Below, piece by piece: positions 18,162 through 39,647 of a DNA stretch of 39,647 nucleotides. Under the pieces are notes generated by a model that was not told the origin of the DNA, searched no databases, and was given only the letters and a program-made list of their open reading frames with translations. The first letter of the stretch is position 1. Every line of letters begins with the position of its first letter. The DNA is from Candidatus Zixiibacteriota bacterium (GTDB lineage Bacteria > Zixibacteria > MSB-5A5 > DSPP01), in NCBI GenBank assembly GCA_022614805.1, contig JAKEHY010000011.1, positions 1 to 39,647 of the forward strand, given 5' to 3'. Made by a program: the position numbers and the translations under genes.

Positions 18162-18320
18162 GAATTATCGGGCGGTATCGGATGGACAAAAAACAGAGCG
18201 GGATTGGATGGAATTTCGGGAGAATGGAACGGTCGGAGGTTTCTTTATGATTTCGGGCACCTTTCTTCAGATTATCGGAAAGAAAACAAGCGAAACCGAA
18301 AGCGTCTGGCCCTCCACCCC

Positions 18321-18349
18321 TTGACTTCCCCTTTGGCTTTGTTGAGATT
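18321..18349 (+). promoter_or_regulatory. Promoter of nadA-thiD
   Basis: TTGACT (18321-18326), a 17-base spacer and GAGATT (18344-18349). The ATG of nadA begins nine bases after the -10 box, so any leader is about two bases. The -10 match is weak. Confidence 0.4.
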
Positions 18350-18358
18350 ATTGAAAGT

Positions 18359-19456
18359 ATGACCACTTTCGCCGCCAAGACCTTAGTGTCCCAGGAATAC
18401 AAGGCCCTTCCGCCGGAGGTGCTGAAGGCCAAAATCGCCCGGAAGAAAAGTGAATGGGGAAAGAAGCTGGTGATTTTGATGCACCACTATCAGCGCAAGG
18501 AAATCGTCCCCTTTGGCGACCATTTGGGCGACTCCTTTGGTCTGTCCCAAAAAGCGGCCGCGGAGGTGGAAGCCCGGCACATCGTTTTTTGCGGCGTGCA
18601 TTTTATGGCCGAATCGGCCGACATTCTGGCCCGGCCGGAACAGCACGTCTACTTGCCCAACCCCTACGCCGGCTGCCCGATGGCCGATATGGCCCAGATT
18701 GAAGACGTTTTCTTCGCTTGGGACGAAATTTCCCGCCTGGTGCCGGCCGATGAAATCACGCCCGTCTCGTATATGAACTCCGCCGCCGTTTTAAAGGCCT
18801 TTTGCGGCAAAAACGGCGGCATCGTCTGCACCTCCTCCAACGTCACCAAGGCCTTCAACTGGGCGCTCTCGCAACGGCCCAAAATTTTCTTCTTCCCGGA
18901 TGAAAATCTGGGGTTGAACGCGGCGCGGATGCTGAAATACGACCCGGCCGACATCATCGTCTGGGATTTCAAAAAGGAACGGGGGGGCAACACCCCGGAG
19001 CAAATCAAAAAAGCCCGCTTGATTTTGTGGAAGGGATACTGCCACGTACATACCAACTTCCGGCCGGAGCATATCGAAGAAATGCGCACCCGCCACCCCG
19101 GCGTCAAAATCGTCGTCCATCCGGAATGCATCCCGGAAGTGGTGGAGAAAGCGGACGCCTTCGGTTCGACCAACTTTATCGTAAACTATGTGAAGGAACA
19201 ACCTCCCGGCTCGGTCATCGCCATCGGAACGGAATTGAATTTAGTCTCCCGGCTGGCGGACGAACATCCGGATAAAAAGATTTTGGACCTCTCCGGCCAG
19301 ACTTGTCCCATCTGCGTCAATATGTTCCGCACCACCCTGGCCGATTTGGCTTTCACGCTCGACTGTCTGGGGGAAGTGAACGAAATCATCGTAGAAGAGG
19401 ATATAAAAAAAGACGCGCTTTTGGCTTTAAATAGGATGCTTGAGTTCCTGAAGTGA
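18359..19456 (+). CDS. nadA: Quinolinate synthase
   Basis: A 365-residue NadA of the longer subtype. It condenses iminoaspartate with dihydroxyacetone phosphate to quinolinate, the first committed step of NAD synthesis. The probable 4Fe-4S ligands are Cys106 (YAGCPMAD), Cys228 (GYCHVHTNF) and a cysteine of GQTCPIC (316/319). Substrate residues include MHHYQRKEI, MNSAA, TSSN and VHPEC. nadB and nadC are not in the window. The stop overlaps the thiD start by four bases (GTGA), showing coupling. Confidence 0.96.
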   Translation: MTTFAAKTLVSQEYKALPPEVLKAKIARKKSEWGKKLVILMHHYQRKEIVPFGDHLGDSFGLSQKAAAEVEARHIVFCGVHFMAESADILARPEQHVYLPNPYAGCPMADMAQIEDVFFAWDEISRLVPADEITPVSYMNSAAVLKAFCGKNGGIVCTSSNVTKAFNWALSQRPKIFFFPDENLGLNAARMLKYDPADIIVWDFKKERGGNTPEQIKKARLILWKGYCHVHTNFRPEHIEEMRTRHPGVKIVVHPECIPEVVEKADAFGSTNFIVNYVKEQPPGSVIAIGTELNLVSRLADEHPDKKILDLSGQTCPICVNMFRTTLADLAFTLDCLGEVNEIIVEEDIKKDALLALNRMLEFLK

Positions 19457-20241
19457 AGAAATTCCCCACCTGCCTGACCGTCGCCGGTTCCGATTCGGGC
19501 GGCGGGGCCGGCGTTCAGGCCGACTTAAAAACCTTCGCCGCCTTAAAAGTCTTCGGCACCTCCGTCGTCACTGCCGTGACCGCGCAGAATACCCGCGAGG
19601 TTTTGGATAGCTGCCCGCTTTATCCGGAGGAGGTCGAAAGCCAGCTGGAGGCGATTTTCGACGATTTCAACGTGAAGGCAATCAAGACCGGAATGCTGGC
19701 GGATGGCGACATCGTTTCGGTGGTAGCCCGCAAGCTGAAGGCCGAAAGGGTCAAAAACTTGGTCGTAGACCCGGTTCTGGTGGCCAAATCGGGCGCACGG
19801 CTTTTGACGGCCGAGGGAGCCGAAGTGCTGGTGAAAAAGCTTTTTCCGCTGGCGGCCTTGATTACCCCCAATCTGCCCGAAGCAGAAGCGCTTTCCGGGA
19901 TGAAAATAAGAGCCGACGAAGATTACCGCAAAGCGGCCGAGAAGCTTTTGGGCTTCGGCCCCCGCGCGGTGGTGATTAAAGGTGGACACCGCAAGGGGGA
20001 CGCCAACGATTTTTTCTTTGATGGAAAAAAGGCGGTCTGGCTCAAGGCCAGACGCGCCAAAATGAAAGCCGTCCACGGCTCCGGCTGCATTTTTTCCGCC
20101 GCCATCTGCGCCAATCTGGCCAAGGGGAAACCACTTTTGGCTTCGGTAAGAACGGCCAAGGGTTTTATGAACCGGCTTTTGCACTCCCCTTTCAAGCCCG
20201 GCCGCGGCCACTGGGTGACCGACCCGATGTTACGGAGTTAA
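19453..20241 (+). CDS. thiD: Hydroxymethylpyrimidine/phosphomethylpyrimidine kinase
   Basis: A 262-residue ribokinase-fold enzyme that phosphorylates HMP and HMP-P for thiamine synthesis. Motifs are TVAGSDSGGGAGVQADLKTF, VKAIKTGML, DPVLVAKSG, TPNLPEAEAL, VVIKGGH and the anion-hole/catalytic HGSGCIFSAAI. The GTG start overlaps the nadA stop. The last 22 codons (NRLLHSPFKPGRGHWVTDP onward) are duplicated, with 12 changes in 65 bases, at 21489-21553 beyond the cassette. The gene is therefore complete, but its 3' end may have been supplied by the inserted DNA. Confidence 0.95.
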   Translation: MKKFPTCLTVAGSDSGGGAGVQADLKTFAALKVFGTSVVTAVTAQNTREVLDSCPLYPEEVESQLEAIFDDFNVKAIKTGMLADGDIVSVVARKLKAERVKNLVVDPVLVAKSGARLLTAEGAEVLVKKLFPLAALITPNLPEAEALSGMKIRADEDYRKAAEKLLGFGPRAVVIKGGHRKGDANDFFFDGKKAVWLKARRAKMKAVHGSGCIFSAAICANLAKGKPLLASVRTAKGFMNRLLHSPFKPGRGHWVTDPMLRS

Positions 20242-20371
20242 CGTAAAATATCTGTAGATAATCTTTAACTCATTACAGGAGTTGGGATTTGAATCAAGCC
20301 GATGAACGGCTCGACGATAACCCTCATAATCTTTTTTCAGATAACAAAATACGCCAAATCGGAAACTTAAC
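20242..20371. other. Left flank of the cassette, no gene
   Basis: A+T-rich spacer between the thiD stop and the cassette promoter. A short reverse-strand frame (20466-20230) has no ribosome binding site. The sequence GATTCAAATCCC on the reverse strand resembles a tRNA T-arm but no cloverleaf can be folded around it. Confidence 0.4.
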
Positions 20372-20400
20372 TTGACAGAGCGACCTTCTGCCTTTATACT
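20372..20400 (+). promoter_or_regulatory. Near-consensus promoter of the cassette gene
   Basis: TTGACA (20372-20377), exactly 17 bases, then TATACT (20395-20400). This is the best promoter match in the window on the plus strand. It fixes the start codon downstream, at ATG 20426, behind AAAGCAGGA. Confidence 0.8.
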
Positions 20401-20425
20401 TTCGAATGGTAATAAAGCAGGAATT

Positions 20426-21478
20426 ATGCGGATTCGAACCTTCAGAAAATCTCCGGTTTCCATCATTCTTTTTTTCTTGACCGGGTTGATTGCCGTTATG
20501 CCTTACCAGTTAGGAAATGCCCAGCTTAGTCAGGCTGACAAAGAAGCATTAGCGAAGAAGGGTTCTTTGGGCGTGAGTACAGACTTGGGCGACCCCGCGT
20601 TTTACCGGGGTTTATCCGAAGAGGAAGCAAGCCGAATGATTGAGTTTTCCAAAATCATCAATTTTGGTGCAAGAAGGATAAAGCGGAATTTAGATGCTGA
20701 AGAGTTGCAGGCGAGGTTGACTGCGTTTGTACATGCGGTTTTCAGCGACAGCGCTCGTAGTAACCCTTGGACGGTAAAAGAAAAGTTAAAACTCTGGCGT
20801 TTCCAATCAGAGGCGGAAAAGTTGGGTTTGTTTGTGTTTGAATCCGAGAGAGAGAAGCAGTATTTGCAAGAAATTTTGAAAACCCCAATACTTGATGAAA
20901 ATGACCTGGCTCAAATTGAATGGCCTATAATGCCTATGAAAGGCAGATCTGTTTATCCGGAGGACCCAGAATATCCGGGATTAACAGAATTGGAGGCCGC
21001 AAAAATAAAAGAGTGGAAACAGCGAATACAAGATGACAGTGTATCATATTCAACCAAGAAAGCCGAGCTTCAAGAAAGGCAGTTACAGCGATTACTCCGT
21101 ACTACGGATTCCAAAGGCGCAATTAAGGAAAGTAAGAGCACTAATCTAGGAGACCCAAAATTCTATCGGGGCTTAACGCAAGCCGAAGTGGATAGGCTTT
21201 TTAGATTCACGGAAATACTTTTTGGTGATACGACCTCCTCTCCAGAGGCCTTGGAGCTAAAACGAAGTTTGGAAAGATTTTTGATTGAATCTTTTGCTGA
21301 TACGGCCAGGACTTTTGGCTGGACAAAAGAAGAAAAATTAAAGCTAAACCAATTTCGACAAAAAGCCCAGGAATTAGGGCTTCTAACGCTTGATACTATG
21401 GAAAAGAGAACAGAGGCTTGGCGCAAAATTAAACAGGAGCAACGGTCTAAAGCAAATAAGGAAGTAAAAGTGAAATAG
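20426..21478 (+). CDS. Exported protein with an internally repeated ~85-residue module (cassette gene)
   Basis: A 350-residue protein of unknown function. It has a signal peptide (SIILFFLTGLIAVMPYQLGNAQ, about residues 12-33). Residues 54-137 and 241-323 are clear repeats: LGDPAFYRGLSEEEASRM against LGDPKFYRGLTQAEVDRL, then SDSARSNPWTVKEKLKLW against ADTARTFGWTKEEKLKLN, ending EKLGLFVFE against QELGLLTLD. A shortened third unit (EDPEYPGLTELEAAKIKEW) sits at about 180-198. The protein is helical and charged, ending KANKEVKVK. Base composition is visibly richer in A+T than both neighbours, with codons such as TTA, AAA and AGA common. It has its own strong promoter and lies between two copies of the thiD 3' end, so it was probably acquired. 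No family is recognised. Confidence 0.8.
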   Translation: MRIRTFRKSPVSIILFFLTGLIAVMPYQLGNAQLSQADKEALAKKGSLGVSTDLGDPAFYRGLSEEEASRMIEFSKIINFGARRIKRNLDAEELQARLTAFVHAVFSDSARSNPWTVKEKLKLWRFQSEAEKLGLFVFESEREKQYLQEILKTPILDENDLAQIEWPIMPMKGRSVYPEDPEYPGLTELEAAKIKEWKQRIQDDSVSYSTKKAELQERQLQRLLRTTDSKGAIKESKSTNLGDPKFYRGLTQAEVDRLFRFTEILFGDTTSSPEALELKRSLERFLIESFADTARTFGWTKEEKLKLNQFRQKAQELGLLTLDTMEKRTEAWRKIKQEQRSKANKEVKVK

Positions 21479-21488
21479 AGCCTTATAT

Positions 21489-21553
21489 ACCGGCTTCTGA
21501 ATTCCCTGTTTAAGCCCGGCCGCGGTCACTGGGTGGCCGACCCGGTTTTATAG
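21489..21553 (+). pseudogene. Second, diverged copy of the thiD 3' end
   Basis: These 65 bases match 20171-20235 at 53 of 65 positions, including an identical 14-base run (20194-20207 and 21512-21525). Read in the thiD frame they encode YRLLNSLFKPGRGHWVADPVL then TAG, so changes are mostly silent or conservative and the piece evolved under selection as a thiD end. It stops 10 bases before the stop of the convergent diguanylate cyclase gene, the spacing expected for an original thiD terminus. Best read as the displaced end of thiD or an attachment-site duplicate. Confidence 0.8.
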
Positions 21554-21563
21554 CTCCGTTAAA

Positions 21564-23126
21564 TTAAATCGCGCAGACTAAATTCCGGCCGCTCCCCTTG
21601 GCCCGGTAGAGGGCCTGGTCGGCCACCCGCACGATTTCGTGCTCGGGGTGGCCGTTTTCCGGGTAGGTGGTGATGCCGACCGAGACCGTGGTGCGCATTT
21701 CCGGAATTCCGCGCATCCCACCGAATATGGTTTCCGCGACCATCGAACGAATCCGCTCCCCGATGATAAAAGCGTCCCGCTTGTCGGTCTGGGGTAAAAT
21801 AATGGCGAACTCCTCCCCGCCGTAGCGGGCCAAAACGTCCGTGTCCCGGATGCAGCGCTCGATGACCTTCACCAGTTCGCGCAAGACCACGTTGCCGGCC
21901 TGGTGTCCGTGGCGGTCGTTGGTTTTTTTGAAATAGTCGATGTCAATCATTATCAGGGACACCGGCTGGCGGTAGCGGCGGGACCGCTTGACTTCGTCGT
22001 CGAGTTTGGCGGAAAAGTAGCGGTAGTTGTAAATGCCGGTCAACGGGTCGACGATGGACATTTCCTCCATGCTCTTATGCATACTGGCGTTTTCCAAGGC
22101 CATCGCCGCCGAGTTGGCCAGAATGGAGAAAGTTTTTTGGTCCTTATCCAAAAAACCTCCCACGTTCCGGCTATCGGCTGCCAGCACGCCGATGACCGAA
22201 CCGCGCGCGGTCATCGGCACCACCATTTGCGAACGGGCTCCCCGCAACCCGGGGACGTAGAGGGGGTCCAGTTCGGTATCGAACACCCGTTCCCCCCGTC
22301 CGGTTCGAACCACGCGCCCGATGATCCCTTCCAGTTCCACTCCGACCGGCTCTTTGTAGATTTTCTTTTCTCCAAATTCCATCTTGGCCTTTAAAAACAG
22401 CCGGTTCTCCTGTGCGTTTAAAAGCAAAACGTCGCAGGTCTGATATCCCAAAACCCGCCGGGTGATGTTTAAAATTTCGTCCAGCACTTCATCCATATTA
22501 TGAATTTCTCCCAATGCCCGGCTGGTTTCATACATCGTTTCCAATTGCGTTTGCGAGCGCTCCAGTTCGCTCGTGCGTTCGTTCAGGGTGTCCAGGGCGC
22601 GCAACAATCTTTCCTCCGAAGCCTTCAGGTAGCGCGAGATAACCCCCACCGCCATGGCGGAAAACCAGAAAAGGGCAACCCGAACGGCCAGTTCTCCCGG
22701 GTAAGCCCCTTCCGGCAAGGGGTGATTGGCGATGGTGTAGAAGACGGTGGCAAAGGTGGCCAGCACCAGCCCAAAGCGAAGGTTGTAATAAAAGGCTCCA
22801 AACGATATGGCCAGGTAGTAAAGAAGGTAAAATCCGGAGGAAAACCCGCCGGTGGCATGCGCCAGCGTGGTGATGAAAGCCAAATCGAAAAACGCAGTGC
22901 CCTGATAGAACCAATCGCGGGAGAATTTTTTCCAATGCGAAAAAAGATAAAGCAGCAGCAGGTGGAGAACAAAGGCGACCAAAAGCCCGCGGACCAAAAG
23001 GAGGTTGAAAGCCTGGTCCTGCACCCAGACGGTCCAGAGGGCAATTCCCAGGGCTGTGGCAGCCCGGCTGGTGATAAAAATCGAGTCGACCTTGGAAAAC
23101 AAGGCCTTGGTTATCCGCTCGCGCAT
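21564..23126 (-). CDS. Membrane-bound GAF-GGDEF diguanylate cyclase
   Basis: A 520-residue protein that makes the second messenger c-di-GMP. The N-terminal part has about five to six membrane helices (residues 20-165, for example LLVRGLLVAFVLHLLLLYLF and FGLVLATFATVFYTI). Then come a coiled-coil (EERLLRALDTLNERTSELER), a GAF domain (about 205-345) and a GGDEF domain with DPLTGIYNYRYF and active-site GGEEF at 436-440. An RDTD motif at 427-430, five residues before it, is the product-inhibition I-site. All cyclase residues look intact. The start at 23126 has a GGGG sequence just upstream. The GAF ligand is unknown. Confidence 0.95.
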   Translation of the reverse strand: MRERITKALFSKVDSIFITSRAATALGIALWTVWVQDQAFNLLLVRGLLVAFVLHLLLLYLFSHWKKFSRDWFYQGTAFFDLAFITTLAHATGGFSSGFYLLYYLAISFGAFYYNLRFGLVLATFATVFYTIANHPLPEGAYPGELAVRVALFWFSAMAVGVISRYLKASEERLLRALDTLNERTSELERSQTQLETMYETSRALGEIHNMDEVLDEILNITRRVLGYQTCDVLLLNAQENRLFLKAKMEFGEKKIYKEPVGVELEGIIGRVVRTGRGERVFDTELDPLYVPGLRGARSQMVVPMTARGSVIGVLAADSRNVGGFLDKDQKTFSILANSAAMALENASMHKSMEEMSIVDPLTGIYNYRYFSAKLDDEVKRSRRYRQPVSLIMIDIDYFKKTNDRHGHQAGNVVLRELVKVIERCIRDTDVLARYGGEEFAIILPQTDKRDAFIIGERIRSMVAETIFGGMRGIPEMRTTVSVGITTYPENGHPEHEIVRVADQALYRAKGSGRNLVCAI

Positions 23127-23545
23127 ACCCCGCTTTAGCTTTCGCTCAAGCTCCGCCCTCCGGGCACCGGTTACCCCGTTCCATATTTCTTGGTCATCTC
23201 TTTCTGCGTGGTTTGATTAACCAAACCCTTGCAGTTTCAAGTACCTCACACATACTTCTCCTACGCAGACAACCTGCCCCTTGAGAAAAGCTCTAAAAAG
23301 GCGCAGCTTCCCCCTCGGGCGCACCTTGCCCGCTGTTCGTTTTATCGGCAGAAGTGTTGAATTATTAAGGGGTTACAAGTCGGGGTGAGGGATAATTCCC
23401 ATACTTGGAGAATGCACGAATATCCCATATCCCCCAAATCCAATTACGGGATTTGGCTCCGATTGCAAAATGCGGCCCCTTTCGGCCCAATAACGGCAGC
23501 CACGAAAAATGTGGGCACGGGGGAGGGGGGTTGAGAATTATTCTG
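23127..23545. other. Intergenic region with inverted repeats, no gene seen
   Basis: Two perfect inverted repeats stand out. GGTTTG-ATTAAC-CAAACC at 23210-23227 lies about 85 bases before the cyclase start and could be an operator. CCAAATCC-N7-GGATTTGG is at 23434-23456. A short reading frame at 23405-23593 lacks a ribosome binding site and protein-like composition. Confidence 0.45.
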
Positions 23546-39221: not shown

Positions 39222-39603
39222 GCAAGGATGGGGCCAAATGGGAGCGAAAAATAAAAGTTACGGCCCTTTCCCCTCTTCCACCCTGTTTTTCGCAAGGGAC
39301 TTAACCCTCACAAACGGCCTGCCATACAACACATTGCAAAATTTCCAAAAAATATTTTCCCGCCCAAAACCCCCGTTTTTCCAAAATCCTGAATTTTCAC
39401 CCTTCCAACCTTTTTGTCCCCAACCGCTTGGCAAAATCACTACAACTTTCGAGCGAGTTGCCCAAAGGGCGCTATTTAATAGAGGGACGTGTGTGCGGGG
39501 CTTTCGGATTTCACTAATCCCTAATCCCCAATCCCTGTTCCCTGTTTTTGTGCGACGGGTCGGCGTCGGCGCCGCTGGCGTGCCACAGCCGAACCCCATA
39601 AGG
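39222..39603. other. Intergenic region with low-complexity tract
   Basis: No gene seen. The frame at 39238-39618 is Pro/Phe-rich, lacks a ribosome binding site and has poor composition. CACTAATCCCTAATCCCCAATCCCTG (39512-39537) is a short CTAATCC-type tandem tract common in repeat-laden intergenic DNA. CTATTTAATAG near 39473-39483 is a perfect 11-base palindrome. Confidence 0.4.
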
Positions 39604-39617
39604 AAAGGAGACCGGTA

Positions 39618-39647
39618 ACGACCAAGGAACACGGCACCCTCCCTTCT
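39618..39647 (+). CDS. Possible start of a further gene with an ACG start codon (cut by window end)
   Basis: AAAGGAG (39604-39610) is a strong ribosome binding site. Seven bases later comes ACG, then ACCAAGGAACACGGCACC, giving TKEHGTLPS to the window end. No ATG, GTG or TTG exists in any frame after the site. The spacing is the same as for the ATA-start gene at 30430. It may be a non-standard start or a base error in TAATG. Very tentative. Confidence 0.25.

Follow-up and report, generated by a model that had tools for sequence, protein, structure and literature searches.

The entry of single genes and toxin–antitoxin pairs into chromosomes without a transposase or integrase is an old open question, and it is raised here by the 3' end of thiD in a Candidatus Zixiibacteriota genome (G000; C numbers denote contigs): how did one gene without a recognised family come to lie between two copies of the end of a housekeeping gene? 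The window, by which we mean the whole stretch of 39,647 nucleotides that was analysed, carries thiD at 19453–20241 on the plus strand (Phos_pyr_kin, PF08543, E = 4.8e-87; 85% at the amino acid level to its ortholog in the congener G001). The present working end of this gene (20165–20232, plus strand) recurs as a direct repeat on the same strand at 21483–21550, 4 bp past the stop codon of the intervening cargo gene, where it matches ThiD residues 232–260. The two tails align over 68 bp, gap-free, with 82% identity and a spacing of 1318 bp, so that the 53 of 65 matching positions counted by hand in an earlier note on this DNA were essentially right. In a self-comparison of the whole window this was the third strongest local direct repeat (E = 1.5e-12), and a genome search with the tail (E = 2.8e-13) gave no third copy in 2.56 Mb. 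The 14-base core reported previously is also real: AAGCCCGGCCGCGG stands at 20194–20207 and 21512–21525, plus strand and identical in both tails, and all other sites resembling it in the stretches checked carry at least two mismatches.

The distal copy was described as a thiD C-terminus still in frame, and indeed it reads IYRLLNSLFKPGRGHWVADPVL in the thiD frame up to a TAG at 21551–21553. However, the original stop is probably not this TAG but the TAA at 21560–21562, separated by 1 bp from the next gene's end, because thiD of the congener ends ...LLQSR-TAA at that place. Set against the G001 layout, DP-LLQSR-TAA, the distal tail reads DP-VL-(TAG)-L-R-TAA, and the TAG is probably a later mutation.

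Evidence that the locus was interrupted comes from G001, the single genome of the same genus with which the window was compared; a search for further congeners among genome contigs returned one distant match in an archaeal bin. The native downstream neighbour of thiD is a convergent GAF-GGDEF diguanylate cyclase gene (21564–23126, minus strand; PF00990, E = 1.1e-45). In G001 the stops of thiD and of this gene overlap by 4 bp with no cargo between them, and when the window is aligned to G001, the thiD side matches up to 20226 and the GGDEF side from 21483, both on the same G001 thiD tail. Because thiD adjoins the GGDEF gene there without an insert, the distal tail is the original thiD end and 20233–21482 is the insertion, as the earlier note had proposed in suggesting a comparison with just such a relative. 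The thiD end and the GGDEF gene were both retained, so that the locus holds a duplication with no loss of recipient DNA. Descent of the same double tail within the genus, which would have spoken against an insertion, was not seen in the one congener compared, and in G002, which belongs to the same order, both the tail of thiD and its neighbour are unrelated. Nor was thiD shown to be a recurrent site, a possibility that the earlier note had raised: among the 15 genomes with a ThiD match, of 58 searched, the second tail is present only in this one.

The insert, about 1250 bp at 20233–21482 (plus strand), had been called A+T-rich DNA with a consensus promoter. Its composition bears this out, with 42% GC against about 55% in the surrounding DNA, but the promoter carries less weight: the sigma-70-like TTGACA-17-TATACT at 20372–20400 (plus strand, 11 of 12 positions) lies 5' of the cargo gene and is not significant alone, because shuffled sequence gives 1.7 such sites per region. 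One open reading frame fills the insert (20426–21478, plus strand; 350 amino acids from the ATG at 20426). Its product has an N-terminus that, judged by eye, resembles a signal peptide, as well as two repeats of about 95 amino acids that are 39% identical to each other; AlphaFold, run without an alignment, gave a pLDDT of 43. The gene had been said to belong to no known family, which agrees with the lack of any match at a meaningful E-value in Pfam, NCBIfam or PHROGs. It had no convincing relatives in 132 genomes of the class and phylum and no matches in viral contigs, phages or plasmids, and it was probably acquired from outside. There is no transposase in the insert and no inverted repeat pair bounding it, and an Rfam scan of the thiD region gave no RNA elements.

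To look for the same layout elsewhere, we compared the last 150 bp of each gene with the next 6 kb and, as a control, gene starts with the 6 kb upstream. With simple gene calling, the scan covered 1.71 Mb of G000 (67%) and 0.65 Mb of G001 (about a quarter). Repeats qualified at E of about 1e-7 or better, with a gap above 500 bp and a distal copy that lay outside same-strand genes and was not dispersed, and tandem paralogs were removed. By these rules nine gene 3' ends qualified against one gene 5' end, from approximately 1700 of each (sign test, 0.011); of these, the single head and two tails are weak or sit in repeat-rich DNA. Besides thiD, the clean loci, picked by eye and with cargo and host families from Pfam, carry varied genes. 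In G000 they are a DUF5916 gene (C38:44084/45064; 65 bp, 92%) with cargo of no recognised family, an Nramp gene (C13:48656/45913; 127 bp, 81%) whose cargo includes a GDSL lipase-like gene, an SH3-domain gene (C17:79624/76930; 51 bp, 82%) followed by three cargo genes including a sigma factor, and cysS (C21:51541/52378; 93 bp, 90%) with YdeI/OmdA cargo. In G001 they are gyrB (66 bp, 95%), with an NTase and HepT pair as cargo, and a GYD gene (38 bp, 95%), with an M61-like peptidase. The generality that the earlier note had raised as a condition is borne out insofar as other gene ends carry different cargo and a second tail, but what recurs is the gene 3' end and not thiD.

Two further pairs are incomplete. 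The pair at C25:33120/34164 is weak or partial, being 35 bp long, out of frame and interrupted by an indel. A 12-codon tail pair of a short-chain dehydrogenase (SDR) at C13:66367/67744 is a partial case. Here two SDR C-terminal fragments flank a cargo gene (L092:5657-7780, which is G000 C13:65657-67780). Both copies are orphan tails, because no full SDR gene remains, and the locus may be the relic of two successive events. Other candidates were rejected: the repeat at C25:21507 is out of frame with its gene and has three copies, the 30–33 kb part of C15 is a repeat-rich region, and L118, L096 and L110 hold dispersed repeats.

The gyrB end was followed through 132 genomes of the class. A tail match was present in 107 of them, and a second tail 3' of gyrB in two, G001 and G042, the latter belonging to another family. 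In G042 the second tail lies about 600 bp downstream, and the DNA between, at 42% GC, holds a HicA toxin gene whose small upstream partner has no Pfam match; we infer that this partner is HicB. The gyrB 3' end thus holds different small toxin–antitoxin-like pairs in the two families, and a second gyrB tail comes after each pair (L207 in G042, L205 in G001). In G000 itself unfamiliar genes directly follow gyrB, and no second tail was found. The genes 3' of cysS are likewise wholly different in the two congeners (L163:864-1967; L128:11642-14000), with a 163-amino-acid open reading frame without a family and an acetyltransferase-like one in G001, and YdeI-type and other genes in G000; the cysS end looks as if it were a hotspot of exchange.

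The recurrence of the layout made it possible to ask, from pooled tails, where the second copies came from. The topologically simplest answer is local: a staggered break or template switch would insert foreign DNA and copy the host gene's own last bases, after which the distal copy would drift. The thiD locus offers this reading some encouragement, since its distal copy differs more from G001 than the proximal one does and has gained the in-frame TAG. However, the nine tail pairs, the partial SDR case included, together differ by 48 synonymous and 26 nonsynonymous changes (pN/pS 0.16), for which the local model of a freely drifting distal copy beside a constrained proximal one gives P = 8e-8. 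In several pairs nearly all changes are synonymous, the ratios of synonymous to nonsynonymous being 4:1 for DUF5916, 3:0 for SDR and 6:1 for gyrB in G042. Because the pooled changes are mostly synonymous, most of the divergence should have arisen while both copies were working gene ends, that is, in different lineages, and the earlier suggestion of homologous exchange between thiD alleles fits this pattern. The thiD pair shows the weakest coding constraint of the set, with 5.5 synonymous and 6.5 nonsynonymous changes (pN/pS 0.38); on these numbers, drift of the distal copy could account for the thiD locus taken alone. Stop codons also differ in seven of the nine pairs, compared to 33% of 207 G000–G001 orthologs (P = 0.008), which again goes against local copying and hints at copies of separate origin, or at a homologous stretch that ends at the stop. 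Given the synonymous bias of the pooled changes, we consider local duplication distinctly unlikely.

Tails that diverged in separate lineages could also be what is left of a second full gene copy, brought in from a relative together with the cargo and then deleted except for its tail. Such a history would account for xenologous tails, and flanking duplication of a full gene is normal when a circular fragment with a whole gene integrates. The DNA between the thiD copies speaks otherwise: it holds neither a second full thiD nor any ThiD remnant beyond residues 232–260, so that the tandem duplication named earlier as a possible refutation is not seen. Furthermore, no insert was found with cargo and a long (>135 bp) non-genic remnant, and at all clean loci the tail begins right after the cargo stop. 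Since longer remnants are absent, we regard this as the least probable of the readings considered.

The restored gene end with the displaced old end behind it is, on the other hand, the classic outcome of site-specific integration, and we therefore weighed whether the cargo is a non-autonomous element that used its own thiD end as an attachment site, its tyrosine recombinase having been lost or being supplied in trans. Integrative elements in gene 3' ends, CIMEs among them, are known, for example at fda in Streptococcus thermophilus, and lengths such as 35–127 bp are typical of attachment sites in gene ends. The thiD locus resembles a CIME in that cargo lies between a restored gene end and a displaced old end with no integrase inside. 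In a three-way comparison with G001, moreover, the changes flanking the identical core segregate as a crossover in the core predicts, those of the left arm being specific to the distal copy and those of the right arm to the proximal copy (exact 0.012–0.048); the native-looking arms are the right one of the distal copy and the left one of the proximal copy. In contrast, the trend at Nramp is opposite and cysS shows none, so that neither fits a core crossover. Because the polarity conflicts between loci, we make no call on which copy is foreign outside thiD, and this mosaic test is reported here but not used as support.

Other observations also go against an integrase. None was found in any insert examined, and, in line with what the earlier note had seen, no recombinase or integrase was found near the thiD insert; the thiD tail, like the cargo, had no matches in viral contigs, plasmids or phages. 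In one genome five or more different genes serve as targets; they are unrelated gene ends, and no common core was noticed by eye across the inserts. This variety of targets argues against one site-specific integrase, and together with the lack of an integrase and of a common site visible by eye it sets the loci apart from CIMEs. A CIME-like insertion served by a recombinase in trans is the main rival to recombination with a relative's DNA, and it is weakened by these results; we consider site-specific integration unlikely. Four tyrosine recombinases are encoded in the genome, of which those on C3 and C15 have counterparts in G001 and the other two lie on an island on C21. This island looks like an integrated element (L033–L035, G000 C21:60001-113982); its two tyrosine recombinases are about 35 kb apart, and the right-hand one (C21:108977-110146) overlaps the start of a tRNA-Thr gene.

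The reading that we favour, with somewhat better than even confidence, is that the thiD cassette arose by additive insertion, in which DNA from a relative recombined at the thiD 3' end that both genomes share. In the donor relative the thiD end would be followed by the cargo gene, and a fragment with the last part of the donor thiD and the cargo would enter the cell. One crossover in the shared tail, presumably by RecA-type homologous recombination, would then take place either through a re-circularised fragment or with end-joining on the other side. The product would be a host thiD with a complete tail, followed by the cargo and then by a second tail that adjoins the former neighbour. Several housekeeping genes of the genus, and gyrB of another family, may have undergone the same process, with varied cargo including toxin–antitoxin pairs, and the layout at these ends gives a hint of how chromosomes acquire single genes when neither a transposase nor an integrase is in evidence. 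A precedent exists in a study of Escherichia coli, in which linear DNA with one homologous end was mostly integrated by partial degradation, re-ligation and a single crossover, a route that left insert-flanking duplications of 109–950 bp and was about ten times commoner than one-sided illegitimate integration (PMC3240628). This route predicts the order gene, cargo, gene tail and neighbour and a truncated tail right behind the cargo, which is what thiD shows.

Some features fit this favoured recombination less well. Random breakpoints would be expected to give longer and less regular tails than those seen, which measure 35–127 bp and start 0–30 bp past the cargo stop, and the crossover pattern across thiD, Nramp and cysS is mixed. 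No donor genome with adjacent thiD and cargo was found, and across the 132 genomes of class and phylum the cargo remains an ORFan. More tentatively, and with the balance of our judgement against it, one could envisage that small genes, such as toxin–antitoxin pairs and those for secreted proteins, settle 3' of conserved genes by a general route that needs no integrase. Such genes would travel together with the final tens of bases of the upstream gene, any conserved gene end would serve as a landing site in any relative, and the cargo could be removed by tail-by-tail recombination, much like a cassette system that needs no recombinase.

Several known systems share parts of this layout. The earlier note had suggested that the site, if general, would be undescribed, but insertion with long target duplication has already been published for restriction-modification genes of Helicobacter pylori from a comparison of two strains (Nobusato, Uchiyama, Ohashi, Kobayashi, Gene 2000; via PMC1643837, PMC3031569). 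As the citing papers present it, that class comprises genes missing in a close relative, often selfish gene pairs, which lack a transposase and have host DNA directly duplicated on either side over long and variable lengths. The thiD locus shows the corresponding features, an insert absent from G001 with its empty target and a flanking duplication of 68 bp at 82%. Judged by the same citing papers, it differs in that the duplications picked up in the scan are gene 3' ends, the copies are diverged with mostly synonymous pooled changes, and the cargo is not restriction-modification. Copies that were identical at insertion are not what the pooled set suggests, since its pN/pS of 0.16 argues for divergence before insertion; the thiD pair taken alone would allow either.

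Homology-facilitated illegitimate recombination and single-crossover integration of re-ligated DNA are similar in that one homology anchor brings in unrelated DNA, and the re-ligated route leaves a flanking partial duplication; however, the typical product of the former deletes recipient DNA, whereas the thiD locus shows duplication and no loss (PMC3240628). A pair of one homologous and one illegitimate junction would be compatible with what is seen at thiD. The sequential displacement of C-terminal modules in T6SS effector and Rhs genes is also alike, with a module anchored in a conserved upstream gene and the old 3' end shifted downstream, although there the displaced end is a variable toxin or immunity part (PMC5361080), and at thiD a housekeeping gene has had its conserved end displaced by cargo unrelated to it. 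The PabI restriction system lies 3' of gyrB in two Helicobacter species, and in other species it follows the GMP synthase gene (PMC4615327). A literature search, which was not exhaustive, gave no prior description of a multi-locus pattern specific to 3' ends with coding-constrained tails. Two diverged ends of a housekeeping gene are a readable and automatically searchable footprint, which marks the junctions and suggests a relative's DNA. Should the pattern be general, the contribution of this route to gene gain in bacteria could be quantified by scanning for orphan gene tails.

The wider neighbourhood of thiD has also moved between the congeners. The block nadA-thiD-cargo-GGDEF (window 18166–23545) is relocated: the G001 counterparts of the flanks at 18166 and 23545 lie only 4 bp apart, on contig C60, and the G001 nadA-thiD-GGDEF genes are on contig C43, between other genes. 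Beside nadA on G001 C43 there is a dispersed repeat of about 540 bp (L032:12736-13271), of which the window's genome carries eight or more sizeable copies (C27, C30, C31, C17, C13, C1, C35, C36) as well as many short partial ones, including one at window 39539–39634. The repeat is possibly linked to the movement of the nadA-thiD block. In NadA itself (window 18359–19456), the C-terminal part has a sub-threshold match to TusA (PF01206, E = 0.027) around a DLSGQTCPIC motif.
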